Shown here: positions 1 to 9,087 of the stretch, one piece after another | How positions within the stretch are numbered: position 1 is the stretch's first letter | How the letters are laid out: each line of letters starts with the position of its first letter | Assembly: GCA_034439475.1 (NCBI GenBank) | Contig: JAWXAN010000018.1 | Span: 1 to 64,000, forward strand | DNA length: 64,000 nucleotides | Direction of reading: 5' to 3' | From: Candidatus Zixiibacteriota bacterium | Lineage (GTDB): Bacteria; Zixibacteria; MSB-5A5; GN15; FEB-12 | The notes under the pieces: model-generated | What the model was told of the DNA's origin: nothing | What the model saw: the letters and a program-made list of their open reading frames with translations, nothing else | The model's database searches: none | Made by a program: the position numbers and the translations under genes

Positions 1-60
1 CAGTTGTACGTCAGTTGTACGTCAGTTGTACGTCAGTTGTACGTCAGTTGTACGTCAGTT
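1..60. repeat. 11-bp tandem repeat, five copies, in an Rhs tip remnant
   Basis: The unit cagttgtacgt is repeated five times in a row without interruption and is followed by a partial sixth copy. Read on the minus strand the unit resembles the stretch encoding Leu-Thr-Tyr-Asn-Trp near the Rhs tip (compare 3405-3420, 1498-1512 and 2446-2456). The period is not a multiple of three, so each copy shifts the frame and the Rhs reading frame stops here. The window begins inside the array, so its full length is unknown. Confidence 0.9.
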
Positions 61-460
61 CCCCGTCACTCTCTCTCCATTGCCCGGGGAAGTGAGCAAA
101 GTTACTGATAGATATAGTCTCACCGTACAGTCCCCCGAAGGGATAATACTTGGTCTTCCACCACACCGTTTTAGCCGAATCAGTCAATGCCTGAGGCGTA
201 CCAAGTTGGTCAGTCAGATAATATTCTCTGCCCCCCTGTGAACTATTGCCAAGCCGTGCAATGGGGACGCCGTTGAGGTAAACATAGTCCGCCTGCCAGC
301 CGCCCGAACTGTAATACTCGGACAACTGCTGGCCGTCAAGAGCCGGAATATAGTAGAACGTAGCTCCACCATAGCTTTTCTTAATTCGCCGATGCCAGGC
401 GTCATAACCCATTGTGATGGTTGTGCCGTCTCCGGTGATGGTAATGAGCCGTCCGGCATC
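44..460 (-). pseudogene. Truncated Rhs core fragment (displaced, no toxin tip visible)
   Basis: This fragment encodes the last part of an Rhs core: residues equivalent to DAGRLITITGDGTTITMGYD, then the WHRRIKKSYGG, YVYLNG and YYLTDQLGTP motifs, ending at FPGQWRESDGELTYN. It is closely related to the full-length Rhs gene at about 3414-3790. The identity begins abruptly at about 460, where an in-frame TAG lies just upstream, so there is no Rhs N-terminus. At the other end the frame runs into the 11-bp tandem repeat and stops. It is best read as a remnant left by recombination between Rhs copies. A further toxin cassette could lie beyond the window start. Confidence 0.8.
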
Positions 461-477
461 GTACCTCGCCGGCTAGT

Positions 478-813
478 TTACTCATGTAGAGCCCGTACTA
501 ATTTCATTAGCATCCTCTTAATTCGTTGGCCGGGCCCCTTACCCGTGCGATACATAGTGAGAACATCGATTCCAAAGCTCTGCCTAATGAAACTGAGAAG
601 ATCCTCCCACTCTACTTTAGTGCAACGATGAAAAATGTCTCCATGGGCAATATTATGTTTTACTATTTGCTCCGATACACTTAATGTGGTCGAATAGGAT
701 TTTTCTGCTGTGAAGTATTTCAGAATCACATCCAAAGAAACTTCCTCGCCGTAACCATCCCACCCGCCAAAGTGAAAGGGTACTCCCCTATGGTCGTTGC
801 CTATCATTTCCAC
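478..813 (-). CDS. Small protein following an orphan Rhs toxin cassette, candidate immunity protein
   Basis: This encodes 111 residues with no signal peptide or membrane segment and no family I recognise. The N-terminus is rich in Gly and aromatic residues (FHFGGWDGYGEE) and the C-terminus is basic. Its start overlaps the stop of the toxin-like cassette upstream by about 10 nt, which implies translational coupling. The next Rhs fragment begins within 20 nt of its stop. Position directly behind an Rhs C-terminal cassette is the classic place for the cognate immunity gene, so a soluble cytoplasmic immunity protein is inferred from context only. Confidence 0.55.
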   Translation of the reverse strand: MEMIGNDHRGVPFHFGGWDGYGEEVSLDVILKYFTAEKSYSTTLSVSEQIVKHNIAHGDIFHRCTKVEWEDLLSFIRQSFGIDVLTMYRTGKGPGQRIKRMLMKLVRALHE

Positions 814-1442
814 CTCCAGCCCCTGATGACCTCATTTCCCTTTCCTGATAGAGGCCATCCTAAGTCCACACGCGGGAGCGGTGTCCTCGGTCCACGGATT
901 GGTTCCAACCAATGAACATTTACTCGCCGTACAGCCGTTCCCGGATTCCTAAGCGGTAGATTGAGTGCTTCTCGTGCCTGTTGTCCAAGTGAATAGGGCG
1001 CTTGGTTTGTTCTACTTGGTGCCAACCAAGGAGAAGTATAGCTCGAGTTCCCTTTCGGATAATACTGCCAGTAACTTCGCGGCACACCGCACAGACTCTG
1101 CAGGCCACGGGCTCCAGTCAATAAGCCGGAAGTTGTAGACCACATCTCGGGTGTCCACAGACTGGCGAAAGTTCCAGCAGTAGCGTCAAGCCAACCATTA
1201 CTTTGTGCATGTCGTGCCGACCAGTAATCTACGGCCTCATTGCCAAAGCCGGTGCCAAAGACCTGGCCGCTTTGAACGGATGTCGGAAGCAGAGACCAGA
1301 CATAATCAGAAACCGATTGCACGGCATTTAGCAGAGAGGTTACTTCTTGGATGCGTGAGTAAATCGACGATCCCTCAGGGTCATAGTAGCGAAGAGGATT
1401 GGCCGAGGCATAGCCATACAGGTTCGCCTGTCGACCATTCAA
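804..1442 (-). CDS. Orphan Rhs C-terminal toxin cassette, toxin family not recognised
   Basis: The frame is open from 1529 down to 804 and starts with an Rhs tip (WHRYYNPRIGRYYQADP, then NLYGYASANPLRYYDPEG), the conserved boundary before a variable toxin domain. The position given uses a TTG at 1440-1442 inside that tip, so the real start is uncertain. An in-frame TGA at 1530-1532 replaces the Trp codon of the FPGQWKDSE motif, and Rhs similarity ends near 1545. The tip is followed by about 185 residues of unknown fold ending in GWPLSGKGNEVIRGWRWK, rich in Trp, Pro and Arg. It looks like a displaced toxin module, probably expressed only after recombination onto a full-length Rhs gene. Confidence 0.55.
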   Translation of the reverse strand: MNGRQANLYGYASANPLRYYDPEGSSIYSRIQEVTSLLNAVQSVSDYVWSLLPTSVQSGQVFGTGFGNEAVDYWSARHAQSNGWLDATAGTFASLWTPEMWSTTSGLLTGARGLQSLCGVPRSYWQYYPKGNSSYTSPWLAPSRTNQAPYSLGQQAREALNLPLRNPGTAVRRVNVHWLEPIRGPRTPLPRVDLGWPLSGKGNEVIRGWRWK

Positions 1443-1546
1443 CCCCAGCGGATCAGCCTGATAATACCTGCCTATCCTCGGATTGTAATATCTGTGCCAG
1501 TTGTAAGTCAGTCTCGCCTCGCTATCCTTTCACTGACCGGAAAAGT

Positions 1547-1852
1547 TTACGATACATCAATAACTGTACAATTATCTCCAAGTGTTATCCATCCTTGCCG
1601 TCCGTCAGACATCTCAATCTTATAGATCATACAGTCTTTTGGATACTCGTAGTTTAAAGCCTTGACGGTATCTCCGATCTCCAATTCTGCAATCACATGA
1701 ACACCTTGATAGTAGAAGCATTCATTTTCCGAAATTACGACCGTTTTGCCTGGACCTGTAACTACTACGGCCTTCTTTAAATCGCCACACCCCCACAGAT
1801 GTAAGAAGATAAGTTGTAGTGGGAAGAATATTATCCATTTTGAGATGTTCAT
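1547..1852 (-). CDS. Putative SH3-like lipoprotein, candidate immunity protein
   Basis: This encodes 101 residues. The N-terminus is a lysine followed by a hydrophobic stretch (WIIFFPLQLIFLHLWGC) that ends in a cysteine resembling a lipobox, so a periplasmic lipoprotein is likely. The rest has the alternating strands and GWITL motif of a bacterial SH3-like fold. I prefer the ATG at 1850-1852 to a TTG at 1865-1867 because it begins just before the signal sequence. It follows the papain-like Rhs cassette by about 20 nt, so it is the candidate immunity gene for that toxin. An envelope location would suit a toxin acting outside the cytoplasm, but this is inferred from position only. Confidence 0.55.
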   Translation of the reverse strand: MNISKWIIFFPLQLIFLHLWGCGDLKKAVVVTGPGKTVVISENECFYYQGVHVIAELEIGDTVKALNYEYPKDCMIYKIEMSDGRQGWITLGDNCTVIDVS

Positions 1853-1871
1853 AGTCCATACCACCAATCAG

Positions 1872-2501
1872 TCAATCCCTTCCACCATCCTCCAGTCCAA
1901 GGTGCCCTAGTCCACCAATTATTTGACTGTTCGGGCAATTGTATGAGTCAACCAGTCCCATGTCCATAAAAGTATTTCCCAACCCTACAGGAAAGACGAT
2001 CGTTCCCATGTTGAATCCAAGATTTTCCAAAGCATTCTCCAAAGGATCGCCACAGCTATTATTTGTAAACCAATTGTAATCCCTGTCGTATGTTCTAAGG
2101 TAGTCGTTGAGGTATATCTCCTGCGCTAACGTCAATTTTAGAATCATGCCGATGCCTTCTCTGAATTTGGTATTTTGCTTGATATAATCCGATGTGGGAT
2201 TAATGTACATCCCCCCAAGAGAGTAACTATATGATGTCGAGTTTATATTGATTGATACATGGCCAAATGAGGAGCGTCCCCATGCTATTGGTTGCCAAAT
2301 AATCACTTCTGTTATAAGTCCTGAAGGATCCGTATATCTCAGCGGATTATTGAGGGCATAGGCGTACAGGTTCGTTTCATCTCCGTGAACCCCCAACGGG
2401 TCAGCCTGATAATATCTGCCTATCCTCGGATTGTAATATCTGTGCCAGTTATGCTGAATGTGGAGAATCGCGCTATCTCGGTACATGCCAGGGAATCTCA
2501 T
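1872..2501 (-). CDS. Orphan Rhs C-terminal cassette with papain-like (permuted NlpC/P60-type) toxin domain
   Basis: It begins with an Rhs tip (MRFPGMYRDS, NWHRYYNPRIGRYYQADP, NLYAYALNNPLRYTDPSGL) followed by about 145 variable residues. In these, a GHVSIN motif with a conserved-looking His precedes an NSCGDPLENAL motif with a Cys at a helix start. That His-before-Cys order is seen in circularly permuted papain-fold enzymes, which include cell-wall peptidases and acyltransferases used as toxins. An in-frame GTG at 2556-2558 would extend it over the end of the preceding gene, but neither start has a good ribosome binding site. This is a displaced cassette, and the catalytic assignment is inferred from motif order only. 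Confidence 0.5.
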   Translation of the reverse strand: MRFPGMYRDSAILHIQHNWHRYYNPRIGRYYQADPLGVHGDETNLYAYALNNPLRYTDPSGLITEVIIWQPIAWGRSSFGHVSININSTSYSYSLGGMYINPTSDYIKQNTKFREGIGMILKLTLAQEIYLNDYLRTYDRDYNWFTNNSCGDPLENALENLGFNMGTIVFPVGLGNTFMDMGLVDSYNCPNSQIIGGLGHLGLEDGGRD

Positions 2502-2512
2502 TGTGTTCGTAT

Positions 2513-2851
2513 CTACGATTTCTGATTTAGCTCTTCCTTGAGTTTCTTGATGCGCCACACTGATCTCAGATAGAGCAAGATAGCAATCATTGGAACAAGA
2601 ATTGGGTAATGGCTAGTGGAAAAAACATGGCTACGCACTGCTCTTGCACCATCAACAAAATCCTGAAATCGCTGACCCTCTAACCCGCTCCTCGCAGTGA
2701 TATGGCGAAGTTCAGGGCCAAAACCAAATACCCAAATAAGATTCGCCGAAAACAAGATGACGCCGAGCACAATACCGAGACGAACCTTTTCTTTCTTCCC
2801 GACAAACCAGGCTGCTATGGCAAGACAGAGGACAATAATCCAATCTATCAT
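2513..2851 (-). CDS. Small integral membrane protein, candidate immunity protein of the intact Rhs toxin
   Basis: This encodes 112 residues with three predicted membrane segments: MIDWIIVLCLAIAAWFVG at the N-terminus, a second at RLGIVLGVILFSANLIWVFG, and a third at YPILVPMIAILLYL, followed by a basic, Lys-rich tail. The ATG at 2849-2851 is chosen over upstream in-frame codons because GGAG sits a few bases before it and it lies 13 nt after the Rhs stop. I do not recognise the family. Its place immediately after the full-length Rhs gene marks it as the cognate immunity candidate, and its membrane location suggests the toxin is met at the inner membrane or periplasm. Confidence 0.6.
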   Translation of the reverse strand: MIDWIIVLCLAIAAWFVGKKEKVRLGIVLGVILFSANLIWVFGFGPELRHITARSGLEGQRFQDFVDGARAVRSHVFSTSHYPILVPMIAILLYLRSVWRIKKLKEELNQKS

Positions 2852-2864
2852 ATGAGCTCCTTTA

Positions 2865-5800
2865 TTATGGACAACCACAGACCTCGTGGCCATTGGCCTC
2901 ATTCAAGGCACGGTTTCGTCCTGCGTTGATTCGATCCCAGCTATCAGAATCAAAGTCAAACGTACTCTTCCGAACATCGAGAAAATCTCGGCCCCTTCTT
3001 TGCGTAAAATCATCCCAAAAGTCATAGAAAATTCCACCCAATCGAACACCGAGTTCACCTCCTACACCCCCGGCTTTGACTCCGACATATCCTGCAAGAT
3101 AATTCCCAAATTCGTCTGCTTTCATCACTACACCCCCCACGTTAAAAGTATCGAACTTTTGATTCGCCTTAAAATCGTACCTTTCGTTACCGATGTGATT
3201 GAAAAAAGCATCCCACAGACTTTGAATGCCAGCTTCAGCAATTATTTTCTCTGTTTCCTCGCACGAAAAGTTCTTCAACCCTAACAGATCGAAGCCCATT
3301 ACCGGATTGTTATCAACATAGGCATATAAATTAATTCCTCCCAAAAGATTTATCGGGTCAGCCTGATAATATCTGCCTATCCTCGGGTTGTAGTAGCGGT
3401 GCCAGTTGTAGGTCAGTCTGCTCTCGCTGTCCTTCCACTGCCCGGGAAAACGGACGTAATTAGTCGTTGAGGTGACTTCATTGTAGATAACACCAAAGGG
3501 ATAGCTTCGGGACTTCCATCTGACCGTCTTGGCTGAATCGGCCAGAACATGCGGTGTCCCAAGCTGGTCGGTAATGTAATACTCACGATTGCCCTGAGAG
3601 CTGTTACCCAGTCGGGCTATTGCTGTCCCATTGAGGTAGACATAGTCCGCCTGCTGGCCGTCCAGAGCCGGGATAAAGTAAATATGCGCTCCGCCGTAGC
3701 TCTTCTTAATCCGCCGATGCCAGGCGTCATAACCCATTGTGATGGTTGTGCCGTCTCCGGTGATGGTAATGAGCCGTCCGGCATCATTGTAAGCATAGAG
3801 GATGGTGTCAATCTGCGGGCCTTCGGGTCCCATGGCCATGAGTCCCTCAAAGGGCGGCGGCGTCTCATTGGCAATACCTTCAATTTCACGGGTAACATTG
3901 CCAGTGGCATCATAGGTAAATGCCAAAGCAATGTCAGTTATATTGGTCACCTTGTTGCCGGAATACTGGTAAATTAAGGTATCTCTGGGACTGCCATACT
4001 CTATAACCTTGTCCCTGTTGCCATTCTTATGGTAGCTGTAGGTAATAGTGTCATCCGGCGCATCCAGACTGATAACGCGGGTCAGCCGGTAGATATCATC
4101 GTAGGTATAAGACTTGGTATTGTTTGATACCCGCCGGTCAGTGACTTGGCTGATGTTATTAGCCAACGTATAGGAATAACCAAAGCGGAAGAGGGAAGTA
4201 TCGGGCGAAGCTGTAGCGATGGAATCAACCCGGTAACTTGAGTCAACCCCGACGTTCACTTTCACTCCGTTTCCGAGCCGCCAGGATTCGGGCCTGCCGA
4301 ACGGGGTATACTTGATGGTATCAACGAGTGTTTTCCAGCTGCCGCTGATGGAGTCACGTATTTTTGTAACCTGGTCGGCGGCATCGTAGGTGTACTCAAC
4401 GACGCGACCGGATGGATATGTCAGCTTGGTGAGATTGTCATTTTTGTCATAACCGTATGTGGTTGTATATATAGTGCTTGTATCATTGGGAAATACCCGC
4501 AATTCCTGGTAGAGCCTTCCTTTTGCATCATAACGGTATCGTGTGCGGCAGGACTTGGTGCTGTCTGAATAAAGACGGCCTTTTCCGTATGAAAACTGCG
4601 TGCCGTCATAAACGTATATAATATTACCATTGGTCGATGAGTCCGGATAACAAATTTTAGTCAACCTATTGAGCGCGTCATATTTGTAGACAATCGAATC
4701 GTTGAGCGCATTTTTCTTCCAGATGAGATTATCAGCCGGATCGTAGCCGTAGCGGGTCACCCCGGTGATTATGGAGCTGTCGAAAATCAGCCGGTTCTTA
4801 TCGTCATAGCGGTAGACATAGTTATTTGTCCCCGGGTCGGTGACCTTGGTAATATTATTCCTCGTATCATAGAAGTACTTGGTGACAATGCTGTCACTTC
4901 CGAGCGGCTGGACTTGTTCAATGACCCTGCGGAGAGAGTCATATTTGAAACGGGTATTCTTATCCAAGCCATCCTTGAGGCTTTCGAGCATCCCAACGGC
5001 AGAATAGGTGAATTTTGCGCTATCGCCATAAAGACCAGTCCGCTTGGTCAGTTCACTCTTATTATTATAGGTAAACGACTCTTGTTTACGAAGGGTGCTG
5101 CTATTCTTGTAAATCTTCTCGGTGAGTGGGTTACCAACTGAATCATACGTATAGGCCATATACTCACCGAGCGCGTTCTTTACCGAATCCAGATACCCGG
5201 CAGCCGAATAGCGGAACGTGGACGCATTGCCGGTCGGAGAGGTTGTGGATAACAGCTTGCCGTCGACATCATAGCTGAAAACGACAGAATCTGAAGTCGC
5301 GGCAATTGTCTTTACCTTGGTTAGCCGTCCTCGCGAATCGAAAGTATATTTTGTTGTGTCACCACTAGAAGTTTTTACCCATGTCCTGCGGCCAAGAATA
5401 TCCCGTTCACCGAATTCAGTTGTATCAGTATTCGGCTGAATTTCATATCGAAGGTCGCCGTTGCCATGGTACACAAACTTGACCGTATCAACTACATCCG
5501 TCCGGGGACCATCGGATTTCGTCATCTGGCCACTGGCATTGTAGGTAAATGTCGACGTATAACTGAAGCTGTCAGAGGCTGTCGATGTCCGATAGCCACG
5601 CTCAATCATCTGGGTGACATTGCCTAAAGCGTCATATGTGTATTTCAGCTTGGTGCTGTCGTTGGATTTGGCAATACTGGGGATCATCACACGTGTCGGT
5701 CGGTTGAAACTGCTGTCGAACGTGAAATACGTCCTCTGAGCTAGCGAGGTATTGCCTCCTGCTACGGCGTAGAGACGATTGCCTCTATGGTCGTAAAGAG

Positions 5801-7454
5801 CGGAATCGATCACCCCGTTGGCATCGGCGACTGCCTCTATTAATCCACCAGCATTATACTCGTATTTGACACCACACTGCGCACAGCTTGAGTCGGCTCT
5901 GACAGTCACGTCTCGTCGCGAGTAAGCCGGTGACCAGAACGACGTGTGCCGACGAGTGCCTGTGGGTGAGCTTGCCTCTGTAGTTATCGAATCAGGACAG
6001 GTTGTCTGCGTGACAGACCAGGACATCGTGCTGCGATCATACCCGTTGCCCCGTGTGTACTGGTTTGCTCGTCCGCTGGAATCATAAGTATAGCGTCGAG
6101 TAAAGCTATTTGAACTGGAAATAGAAGTGATCTTCCGATTATTGGCCGCAATTGTGTCATAGGTATACTCTTCCCAGGAAGCATCGGGGTAGGTTACCTT
6201 TTTAAGCAAATTGACGGTCGGATAATATTCAAACTTCGCCAAAGTATCATTGGCAAACGATCGCACACAGGTCATTCGTCCACTACTGTAGCTAAATGAC
6301 AATCGCCGTCCGGATGAGTTTACGGTTGAATCCAGCAAGCCGGTGGTGTAATAGAATCTCATCTTATTGCCAGCAAGGTCTTGTAAAGAGTCAATTTTCC
6401 CTAATCCCTGGATGAACAGTTTCGTGTCATCTTCAAGCACAATCGTAATCGAGTCATTGGGTTGTGCGACTCGAATGCGATAGTGGGTGCCATACGGTGA
6501 CGTGTAGTTGACCACCTGTGGTTCAGATGAATTAAGAAGATGTTTAGTAAACTGGACGCTTCGTCCCGTTGGCTCAAGCAACGTGTAGTTGCCTGAGGTG
6601 GTATCATAACTTAACGAATACTCAAAGCTATGCCGCCAATTTTTCCACAAGGACGAACTGGAATCATCGGTGTAACTGTTGTAAAACCTGCCGAAGGCAA
6701 TAGACGCTCCCTTATCGGACCAGACCGGTACATCCAAGCGTTCAAAATACATATTGCCATTCGATAGATTTATAGGATCTCCTATTGTAGCCTGGCATGC
6801 TATTGGTCCCCGTTCCACTGGTAGCGGCAACGGTTCTGGCATCGTGTCTGACACACTTCCTGAGGTCGGAACGGTGATGAATATTGTATCGGTTTCGCAG
6901 GCGCAAGTGGGCACTGAAATACCCCATTGCTGTGCTTCGGCCCAGAATTTGACAATATTATGCGGAGGTGCCGGGATAACTTTTGTCAAATATATGCATT
7001 CTCTTGAGCACTCAACACAAGAATTTGCGGTTGACAGGTCTTTCCAAATACACGAGCCAACACTCTGTGTCGTAAATCCATGCCCGACCGTATAAGAGAC
7101 CGCAATTTGAAATTTCTCATTGCCCTGCTGAAATCCGGTGCCAGCAACGTTTATACAGAAGGTCGCAAAGCGACTGTTCGCCGAATCCCACATGCGTTCA
7201 AGCCTTGGCTCCAGGCTTGTTACCATCGGATAACATCGAACCGGAGAATTGACAGAATTGGCACCGCAGTTGTTATTCGGTTGAAAGCCATAACAACCAT
7301 GTTCTTCAGCCAGTACAGATTGAACTTGGACTAAACACAAGAAACTGAAAAGCAGTATCAATCCAATACAATAATAACTCCCTCCGTTTAGTTTGTTGCC
7401 AAAGCATTCTTTCCGCAGGCATTCCTTGCTGTCGGGGTGATCAAATGCAACCAT
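2865..7454 (-). CDS. Full-length secreted Rhs/YD-repeat polymorphic toxin
   Basis: The protein has 1529 residues. A Sec signal peptide lies at about residues 27-49 (YYCIGLILLFSFLCLVQVQS then VLAEE). A Cys-rich region follows to about 217, then the N-terminal Rhs entry domain (DUF6531 type, DPINLSNGNMYF) and a long series of YD repeats forming the toxin-encapsulating shell. The core closes with YNWHRYYNPRIGRYYQADP and NLYAYVDNNPVMGFDLLGL. The final 135 residues are a variable tip containing DEFGNYLAGYVGVKAGG and GGIFYDFWDDF, which resemble the type 44 polymorphic toxin family; that assignment is tentative. A GGAAGG site precedes the ATG. No PAAR, VgrG or TcB/TcA partner is nearby, so export is probably Sec-dependent with a later unknown step. 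Confidence 0.9.
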   Translation of the reverse strand: MVAFDHPDSKECLRKECFGNKLNGGSYYCIGLILLFSFLCLVQVQSVLAEEHGCYGFQPNNNCGANSVNSPVRCYPMVTSLEPRLERMWDSANSRFATFCINVAGTGFQQGNEKFQIAVSYTVGHGFTTQSVGSCIWKDLSTANSCVECSRECIYLTKVIPAPPHNIVKFWAEAQQWGISVPTCACETDTIFITVPTSGSVSDTMPEPLPLPVERGPIACQATIGDPINLSNGNMYFERLDVPVWSDKGASIAFGRFYNSYTDDSSSSLWKNWRHSFEYSLSYDTTSGNYTLLEPTGRSVQFTKHLLNSSEPQVVNYTSPYGTHYRIRVAQPNDSITIVLEDDTKLFIQGLGKIDSLQDLAGNKMRFYYTTGLLDSTVNSSGRRLSFSYSSGRMTCVRSFANDTLAKFEYYPTVNLLKKVTYPDASWEEYTYDTIAANNRKITSISSSNSFTRRYTYDSSGRANQYTRGNGYDRSTMSWSVTQTTCPDSITTEASSPTGTRRHTSFWSPAYSRRDVTVRADSSCAQCGVKYEYNAGGLIEAVADANGVIDSALYDHRGNRLYAVAGGNTSLAQRTYFTFDSSFNRPTRVMIPSIAKSNDSTKLKYTYDALGNVTQMIERGYRTSTASDSFSYTSTFTYNASGQMTKSDGPRTDVVDTVKFVYHGNGDLRYEIQPNTDTTEFGERDILGRRTWVKTSSGDTTKYTFDSRGRLTKVKTIAATSDSVVFSYDVDGKLLSTTSPTGNASTFRYSAAGYLDSVKNALGEYMAYTYDSVGNPLTEKIYKNSSTLRKQESFTYNNKSELTKRTGLYGDSAKFTYSAVGMLESLKDGLDKNTRFKYDSLRRVIEQVQPLGSDSIVTKYFYDTRNNITKVTDPGTNNYVYRYDDKNRLIFDSSIITGVTRYGYDPADNLIWKKNALNDSIVYKYDALNRLTKICYPDSSTNGNIIYVYDGTQFSYGKGRLYSDSTKSCRTRYRYDAKGRLYQELRVFPNDTSTIYTTTYGYDKNDNLTKLTYPSGRVVEYTYDAADQVTKIRDSISGSWKTLVDTIKYTPFGRPESWRLGNGVKVNVGVDSSYRVDSIATASPDTSLFRFGYSYTLANNISQVTDRRVSNNTKSYTYDDIYRLTRVISLDAPDDTITYSYHKNGNRDKVIEYGSPRDTLIYQYSGNKVTNITDIALAFTYDATGNVTREIEGIANETPPPFEGLMAMGPEGPQIDTILYAYNDAGRLITITGDGTTITMGYDAWHRRIKKSYGGAHIYFIPALDGQQADYVYLNGTAIARLGNSSQGNREYYITDQLGTPHVLADSAKTVRWKSRSYPFGVIYNEVTSTTNYVRFPGQWKDSESRLTYNWHRYYNPRIGRYYQADPINLLGGINLYAYVDNNPVMGFDLLGLKNFSCEETEKIIAEAGIQSLWDAFFNHIGNERYDFKANQKFDTFNVGGVVMKADEFGNYLAGYVGVKAGGVGGELGVRLGGIFYDFWDDFTQRRGRDFLDVRKSTFDFDSDSWDRINAGRNRALNEANGHEVCGCP

Positions 7455-8605: not shown

Positions 8606-9087
8606 ATGGGACGAAGACTTCGCGATATCGATATACTGATAGATCAACAAATCTTCTTTGTATCAACTGCCACACGCAATCACGAACATTTTTTCAAGGA
8701 TAACCTTAAGTTGGCCGGTCTATATTCTATCATTGGGCACGTCAGCGCGAGACACAATGCGCAAATCTACGGTTATGTTCTGATGCCAAATCATTTCCAT
8801 TTACTCATCTCAATTGACGGCGGCCCAAGCTCAGCAAATTTATGCATGATGTTAAATCTCTGAGTTGGAGGACACTTTTTGCAAAGAGGTCAGGCGTCTG
8901 GCGAGCACGATTTAATGGCCTCGCGATAACATCCGAAGTGCAATTTCAGACCAAGCTCAACTATATTCACAATAATCCTGTCAAAGCCGGACTGGCCAAC
9001 GAGGCAGAATCATGGCCGTTCTCGTCTGCTTCTTGTTGGAAAGAGGGAGTCTCTGATAGTCTTACCACGCTTGAGAGTCCCTATTGA
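8606..9087 (+). pseudogene. REP-associated tyrosine transposase (RAYT, Y1_Tnp family), frameshifted
   Basis: The first frame (8606-8863) encodes the family's N-terminal half with the HUH metal/DNA-nicking motif in MPNHFHLLI. It ends at TGA after a frame slip near 8835-8845. The second frame continues with MHDVKSLSWRT and the family hallmark YIHNNPVKAGL, to a stop at 9085-9087. The usual KSYT-like segment, which carries the nucleophilic tyrosine, reads KSLS here, so the enzyme probably lost its catalytic residue as well as its frame. The flanking 29-nt inverted palindromes are its likely cognate REP sequences. It is an inactive relic of the IS200/IS605-related domesticated transposases. Confidence 0.85.

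Follow-up and report, generated by a model that had tools for sequence, protein, structure and literature searches.

The window analysed here comprises the first 64,000 nucleotides of contig C18, starting at the first base of the contig, in the genome of an uncultured bacterium that probably belongs to the Zixibacteria. All seven open reading frames (ORFs) of the preliminary description were present on the minus strand at their coordinates, a full-length Rhs gene being followed by small ORFs that alternate with Rhs fragments (Table 1). The full-length protein consists, in order, of an N-terminal segment that looks like a signal peptide, DUF6531, YD repeats, the Rhs core and an attached tip, and the C-terminal domain varies behind a constant core, a feature of Rhs polymorphic toxins. 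The attached tip gave zero Pfam matches at E<=1 and has a marginal relative (26% identity) in only one other genome of the phylum. Profile searches bore out the claim that each orphan starts in Rhs sequence: Rhs_assc_core (TIGR03696), also found in the full-length gene, was matched by the ORFs at 2501-1872 and 1529-804 (E 8.5e-15 in the latter), and PF03527 (RHS) and PF05593 were matched by 460-44. Orphan 2 is not continuous with upstream Rhs sequence, due to an in-frame TGA at about 1535 in its core, upstream of the WHRYYNP block. The GC content of most tips and small genes is below that of the cores. Usable ribosome-binding sites are present at at least two immunity genes: the Shine-Dalgarno sequence AAGGAG precedes the ATG at 2851, and the strong GGAGG of the gene starting at 807 sits within the 3′ end of tip 2. 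No ATG with a good Shine-Dalgarno site was seen for tips 2-4; in orphan 1, the core remnant contains in-frame ATG codons.

Table 1 Features of the Rhs array in the window (contig C18) and on contig C74; activities and partners are predictions
Feature	Contig	Position	Strand	Remarks
Full-length Rhs/YD-repeat gene	C18	2865..7454	-	1529 aa; RHS_repeat E 1.3e-45, DUF6531 E 2.8e-10, TIGR03696 E 7.6e-23
Attached toxin tip of main gene	C18	2865..3278	-	137 aa; no recognised family
74-bp perfect direct repeat, upstream copy	C18	3712..3785	-	inside main gene
Candidate immunity membrane protein for main tip	C18	2513..2851	-	112 aa; presumed cognate from position
Rhs core remnant of orphan 1	C18	2319..2501	-	TIGR03696 E 2.6e-17 (ORF 2501-1872); DNA match to other cores
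Orphan tip 1	C18	1872..2318	-	FGHVS and N-x-C-G motifs; predicted papain/NlpC-P60-like Cys-His enzyme
Candidate immunity lipoprotein for tip 1	C18	1547..1852	-	101 aa; lipobox-like LWGC and SH3b-like GWI pattern, both from sequence
Rhs core remnant of orphan 2	C18	1371..1545	-	85% identity over 96 nt to main core
Orphan tip 2	C18	804..1370	-	fold unassigned; N-terminal pre-toxin region common to C74 tips 4 and 5
Immunity protein for tip 2	C18	478..807	-	homologues directly 3′ of tip-2 homologues in C74 and genome G087
Rhs core half of orphan 3	C18	44..460	-	tip on contig C74 (L033:68-643)
74-bp perfect direct repeat, downstream copy	C18	387..460	-	identical to 3785-3712
11-bp tandem repeat AACTGACGTAC	C18	1..60	-	contig end, inside orphan-3 core; at least 5.5 copies
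BamE-like lipoprotein, partner of tip 3	C74	634-939
Orphan 4	C74	core about 1037, tip to 1801
Tip-4 immunity gene	C74	to 2445
Second BamE-like lipoprotein	C74	2456-2773		behind tip-4 immunity gene; without own toxin
Orphan 5	C74	core 2796-3290, tip open to 3641		possibly frameshifted near end
ORF	C74	3742-4344
Tip-less core remnant	C74	4472-4609
Tyrosine recombinase, C-terminal part	C74	4743-5240		PF00589 E 1.7e-34
tRNA-Leu (TAA anticodon)	C74	5250-5335

The array appears to continue beyond the window. Bases 1-60 of contig C18 are 5.5 copies of AACTGACGTAC (minus strand), and the only other occurrence of this 11-bp repeat in the whole assembly is at C74:1-60, in matching orientation. Contig C74 then supplies the half of this core that C18 lacks, with WHRYYNPRIGRYYQADP, followed by tip 3 (68-643). 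We infer that C18 and C74 adjoin across the repeat, a join that is based on the repeat and on two complementary halves of one core and not on reads; the ORF at 460-44 would therefore be the core half of a third orphan. Extra 11-bp units put a TGA in frame directly after LTYN, so that orphan 3 is cut off from its core. With this join, the total array would extend over about 12 kb and contain one full gene, five orphan tips, four of which are open along their whole length, and one tip-less remnant. The second BamE-like gene of C74 is probably a relative of the tip-3 partner that serves as a stand-alone immunity gene. At C74:4743-5335, the array is followed by the C-terminal half of a phage-type tyrosine recombinase and then by a tRNA-Leu gene, a possible old island boundary; a tRNA-Leu as a conserved integration site was absent beside GlcD in the relatives checked. 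An empty site was sought among the related genomes, several of which carry GlcD and an HppA about 13-14 kb apart. The HppA concerned is a paralogue (47-50% identity, whereas the true relative in genome G013 has 79%) and none of the relatives links both real flanks, so this spacing speaks neither for nor against an empty site.

The core fragments are 68-90% identical to the core of the main gene, and the nucleotide homology expected between them was found, to differing extents. Positions 460-326 and 3785-3651 are 90% identical across 135 nt (BLAST E 1e-47), with one perfect stretch of 74 nt, and 1544-1449 match 3449-3354 at 85% over 96 nt. Homology is weakest for orphan 1, in which the DNA match of 2501-2390 to the main core is limited to approximately 50 nt around WHRYYNPRIGRYYQADP, sequence upstream of this region being Rhs-like at the protein level only (RFPGMYRDS). 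Chance repeats were ruled out as a source of the core matches by E values of 1e-47 to 1e-96 between cores.

Comparison of the three long core copies revealed that the piece at C74:2796-3180 is chimeric. Left of the break, its informative sites side with the 460-44 core by 36:5 (36 of 41), and right of it with the main core by 49:7 (49 of 56), giving a Fisher P of 3e-14 at the best break. With the break left free, the permutation P was 5e-5, the floor of 20,000 permutations, and the same value was obtained using third codon positions only. In addition, 460-387 and 3785-3712 agree at all 74 bp, after which the two copies are about 70% identical. At the level of sequence, the chimeric core piece and the 74-bp perfect repeat are the marks of homologous recombination between cores. 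Serial tip replacement by recombination in the shared core, as proposed in the preliminary description, is thus supported; its other part, that cassettes further from the main gene are older, is not shown, since core identity, when followed along the array, did not drop steadily away from the main gene.

The two copies of the 74-bp repeat bound a segment of 3325 bp with three cassettes, namely the main tip, tip 1 and tip 2, each with its small gene. Jackson et al. 2009 proposed a model in which one crossover with a circular intermediate produces such a repeat (PMC2935791), and under this model tip 3, located behind the downstream repeat copy, would be the formerly attached tip. A tentative extension, which we regard as unlikely, is that the whole 3.3-kb block between the repeats, with its three tips and their immunity genes, was acquired at once through one circular-intermediate crossover and displaced a carrier with the lipocone-like tip 3 described below, expansion of the 11-bp repeat having then severed tip 3 from its core. 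If this were true, cassettes would travel several at a time, as blocks.

The main tip, tip 1 and tip 2 show no mutual match beyond a core of approximately 25 residues, in keeping with the description of the three window tips as unrelated. This does not extend to the full array, in which tips 2 and 4 are homologous (53% identity) and tip 5 shares its first 100 or so residues with both. The tip-2 type occurs in three places, in the window, on C74 and in genome G087 (49% identity to tip 2), with a homologous small gene next to it each time. The tip-3 type occurs in three genomes, the window genome, G029 and, on a full-length Rhs protein, G043, and is followed in all three by a BamE-like membrane-anchored protein. 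Across genomes, toxin/immunity pairs are conserved at 26-53% identity. Judged by this co-conservation in the tip-2 and tip-3 families, tip and immunity genes travel as pairs; for the main tip and tip 1, the position of the candidate immunity gene directly downstream fits, co-conservation being seen for the tip-2 and tip-3 families only. It is quite improbable that the cassettes are pure relics, that is, displaced 3′ ends in decay with no current use: the cores upstream of the tips are indeed broken, by the TGA of orphan 2, by the 11-bp repeat of orphan 3 and in the tip-less remnant at C74:4472-4609, but the tips and immunity ORFs stay open while the core stubs decay, and the pairs are conserved between genomes.

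Tip 1 shares 43.5% identity over 124 aa with the end of an Rhs core protein encoded on a Pseudomonas amygdali plasmid. The carrier of this relative is a 939-codon RHS-core CDS with a DUF6531 CDS directly upstream, and FGHVS and N-x-C-G are kept in both tips (NSCG here, NNCG there). Since two orphan tip types, those of tips 1 and 3, are found on Rhs core proteins elsewhere, the orphan tips are Rhs tips and not ordinary separate genes, and no relative shows them as independent genes. No match to tip 1 was found among the viral contigs and phages searched, and a plasmid search gave no match for the main tip, tip 2 or tip 3. In the annotation of the P. amygdali plasmid (NZ_CP123211.1:10465-22830), the Rhs that carries the tip-1 relative is split into two overlapping CDS, a DUF6531 part and a core part, and it adjoins a recombinase gene.

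Searches of the tips and small proteins against Pfam, NCBIfam, PHROGs and PDB sequences gave no usable match except BamE, which was matched by four of four members of the tip-3-partner genes (best E 3e-8). Tip 3 has the motifs D-x-x-H, E-x-x-Q and D-x-x-x-N, conserved in three sequences, and a weak match to the VanZ profile (E 0.014 in one of three members, below the curated cut-off). These motifs, the weak VanZ match and the BamE-like partner together fit the lipocone toxins, whose predicted targets are lipid-linked precursors in the periplasm and of which BamE-like proteins are the most widespread immunity proteins (PMC12419801). Tip 3 is probably a lipocone-type toxin with a BamE-like immunity protein. 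For tip 1, earlier called papain-like, the Cys-His pattern is retained, with His20 and Cys89 conserved in the Pseudomonas relative (two sequences only), and the assignment to the papain fold or family itself found no profile or PDB match. Its neighbouring lipoprotein has no Pfam match. Tip 1 and this lipoprotein would fit a candidate periplasmic Cys-His enzyme, NlpC/P60-like or papain-like, and its partner. AlphaFold models made without an alignment were discarded (pLDDT of 35 for tip 1 and 45 for the lipoprotein).

Rhs cores were found in 45 of 132 genomes of the phylum, and in about 12 of these 45, as read from coordinates, two or more cores lie close together with short frames (G000, G001, G013, G028, G029, G063, G072, G099, G115, G116, G122 and G130). 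A clear parallel is G013, where a full gene and its two orphans share one strand. In this genome (G013:C23:138000-149500) the main tip and the first orphan tip are 82% identical over the first 91 or so residues and then differ, the junction falling inside the tip and not in the core. In G029, assembled into 10 contigs, four contig ends (C4, C7, C2 and C1) lie in Rhs core sequence, indicating that arrays of this kind break assemblies. Contig ends in Rhs core, in the window genome and in a related genome, are what would be expected if a metagenome assembler had joined different Rhs loci at their shared core. Such an artefact is nevertheless highly improbable, as exact stretches shared within the window are at most 74 bp and mostly below 50, and the same layout is present in independent genomes, including the single-contig G115.

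The locus is an orphan Rhs-CT array of the kind described by Jackson 2009 and Poole 2011, an arrangement known from other bacteria. As in the enterobacterial rhs C-terminal displacement loci (PMC2935791), a full gene is followed by same-strand units of a core fragment and an unrelated tip with small genes, the fragments mostly appear to lack starts, and most tips and small genes have a lower GC content than the cores. Unlike in those loci, the core fragments are chimeric and diverged (68-90%) rather than near identical, and this divergence counts against the explanation given below, whose model comes from the enterobacterial arrays; the host phylum is probably Zixibacteria, and no T6SS sheath gene was found. 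As in the orphan rhs-CT/rhsI and cdiA-CT/cdiI modules (PMC3150448, PMC3967940), an orphan tip adjoins an immunity gene, here a candidate one, and orphan tips occur on full-length proteins in other bacteria; the homology tracts are shorter here, with a perfect tract of 74 bp compared with 522 bp at 95% in Salmonella. Orphan 3 resembles the lipocone toxins described in 2025 (PMC12419801) in its motifs and in the membrane-anchored BamE-like product of the next gene, in three genomes, whereas its VanZ match is only weak (E 0.014) and the probable assignment goes no further than the superfamily.

Taken as a whole, the locus is very probably one polymorphic-toxin system, consisting of a carrier with an exchangeable tip and a presumably silent store of orphan cassettes deposited by recombination. 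A Sec-exported Rhs/YD-repeat carrier would bear the exchangeable 3′ tip, and homologous recombination in the conserved 3′ core would deposit the row of orphan tip/immunity cassettes. Only one tip would be deployed at any time, presumably against other bacteria. The orphan tips, most of which appear to lack start signals, would not be made as delivered toxins; a crossover in the core could place a stored tip on the carrier, with the matching immunity gene coming along. Experiments in Salmonella gave evidence for such a change of tip by core crossover with one orphan (PMC3967940). The explanation as a whole follows published models (PMC2935791, PMC3150448, PMC3967940, PMC3482391). Most small genes behind the tips are likely expressed and may confer immunity to sibling or neighbour cells using those tips. 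No T6SS sheath gene (VipB) was detected in the genome, the assembly being 98.7% complete and the positive control detected, which makes export via Sec and a surface or secreted Rhs shell more likely.

The array may instead be mainly an archive of immunity, in which the small genes are selected for protection against neighbours and the tips are decaying passengers, a reading we consider possible and somewhat unlikely. The good Shine-Dalgarno sites at the immunity ORFs 2851 and 807, set against orphan tips without ATG starts with such sites, are consistent with it, as are the BamE-like gene at C74:2456-2773 that stands without its own toxin and the report of Poole 2011 that orphan immunity was expressed and the orphan toxin was not (PMC3150448). 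However, four of five orphan tips being open over their whole length goes beyond what passengers need, and core mosaicism shows that the cores recombine. An archive of immunity and a store of exchangeable tips are not mutually exclusive.

Orphan-tip arrays have been described chiefly from Proteobacteria; the present one adds an uncultured lineage, probably Zixibacteria, in which they recur. The chimeric core and the 74-bp repeat at a cassette boundary are sequence-level evidence for a crossover model that had been proposed from layout. A lipocone-like tip is here linked to BamE-like immunity in Rhs arrays, and one tip type is common to this lineage and a Pseudomonas plasmid, across phyla. Upstream of the Rhs gene, at 8606-9087 (+) of the window, two overlapping ORFs resemble a frameshifted REP-associated transposase (LMPNHFHLLI motif), and a similar ORF is located near an array contig end in G029 (L038:2429-2982).
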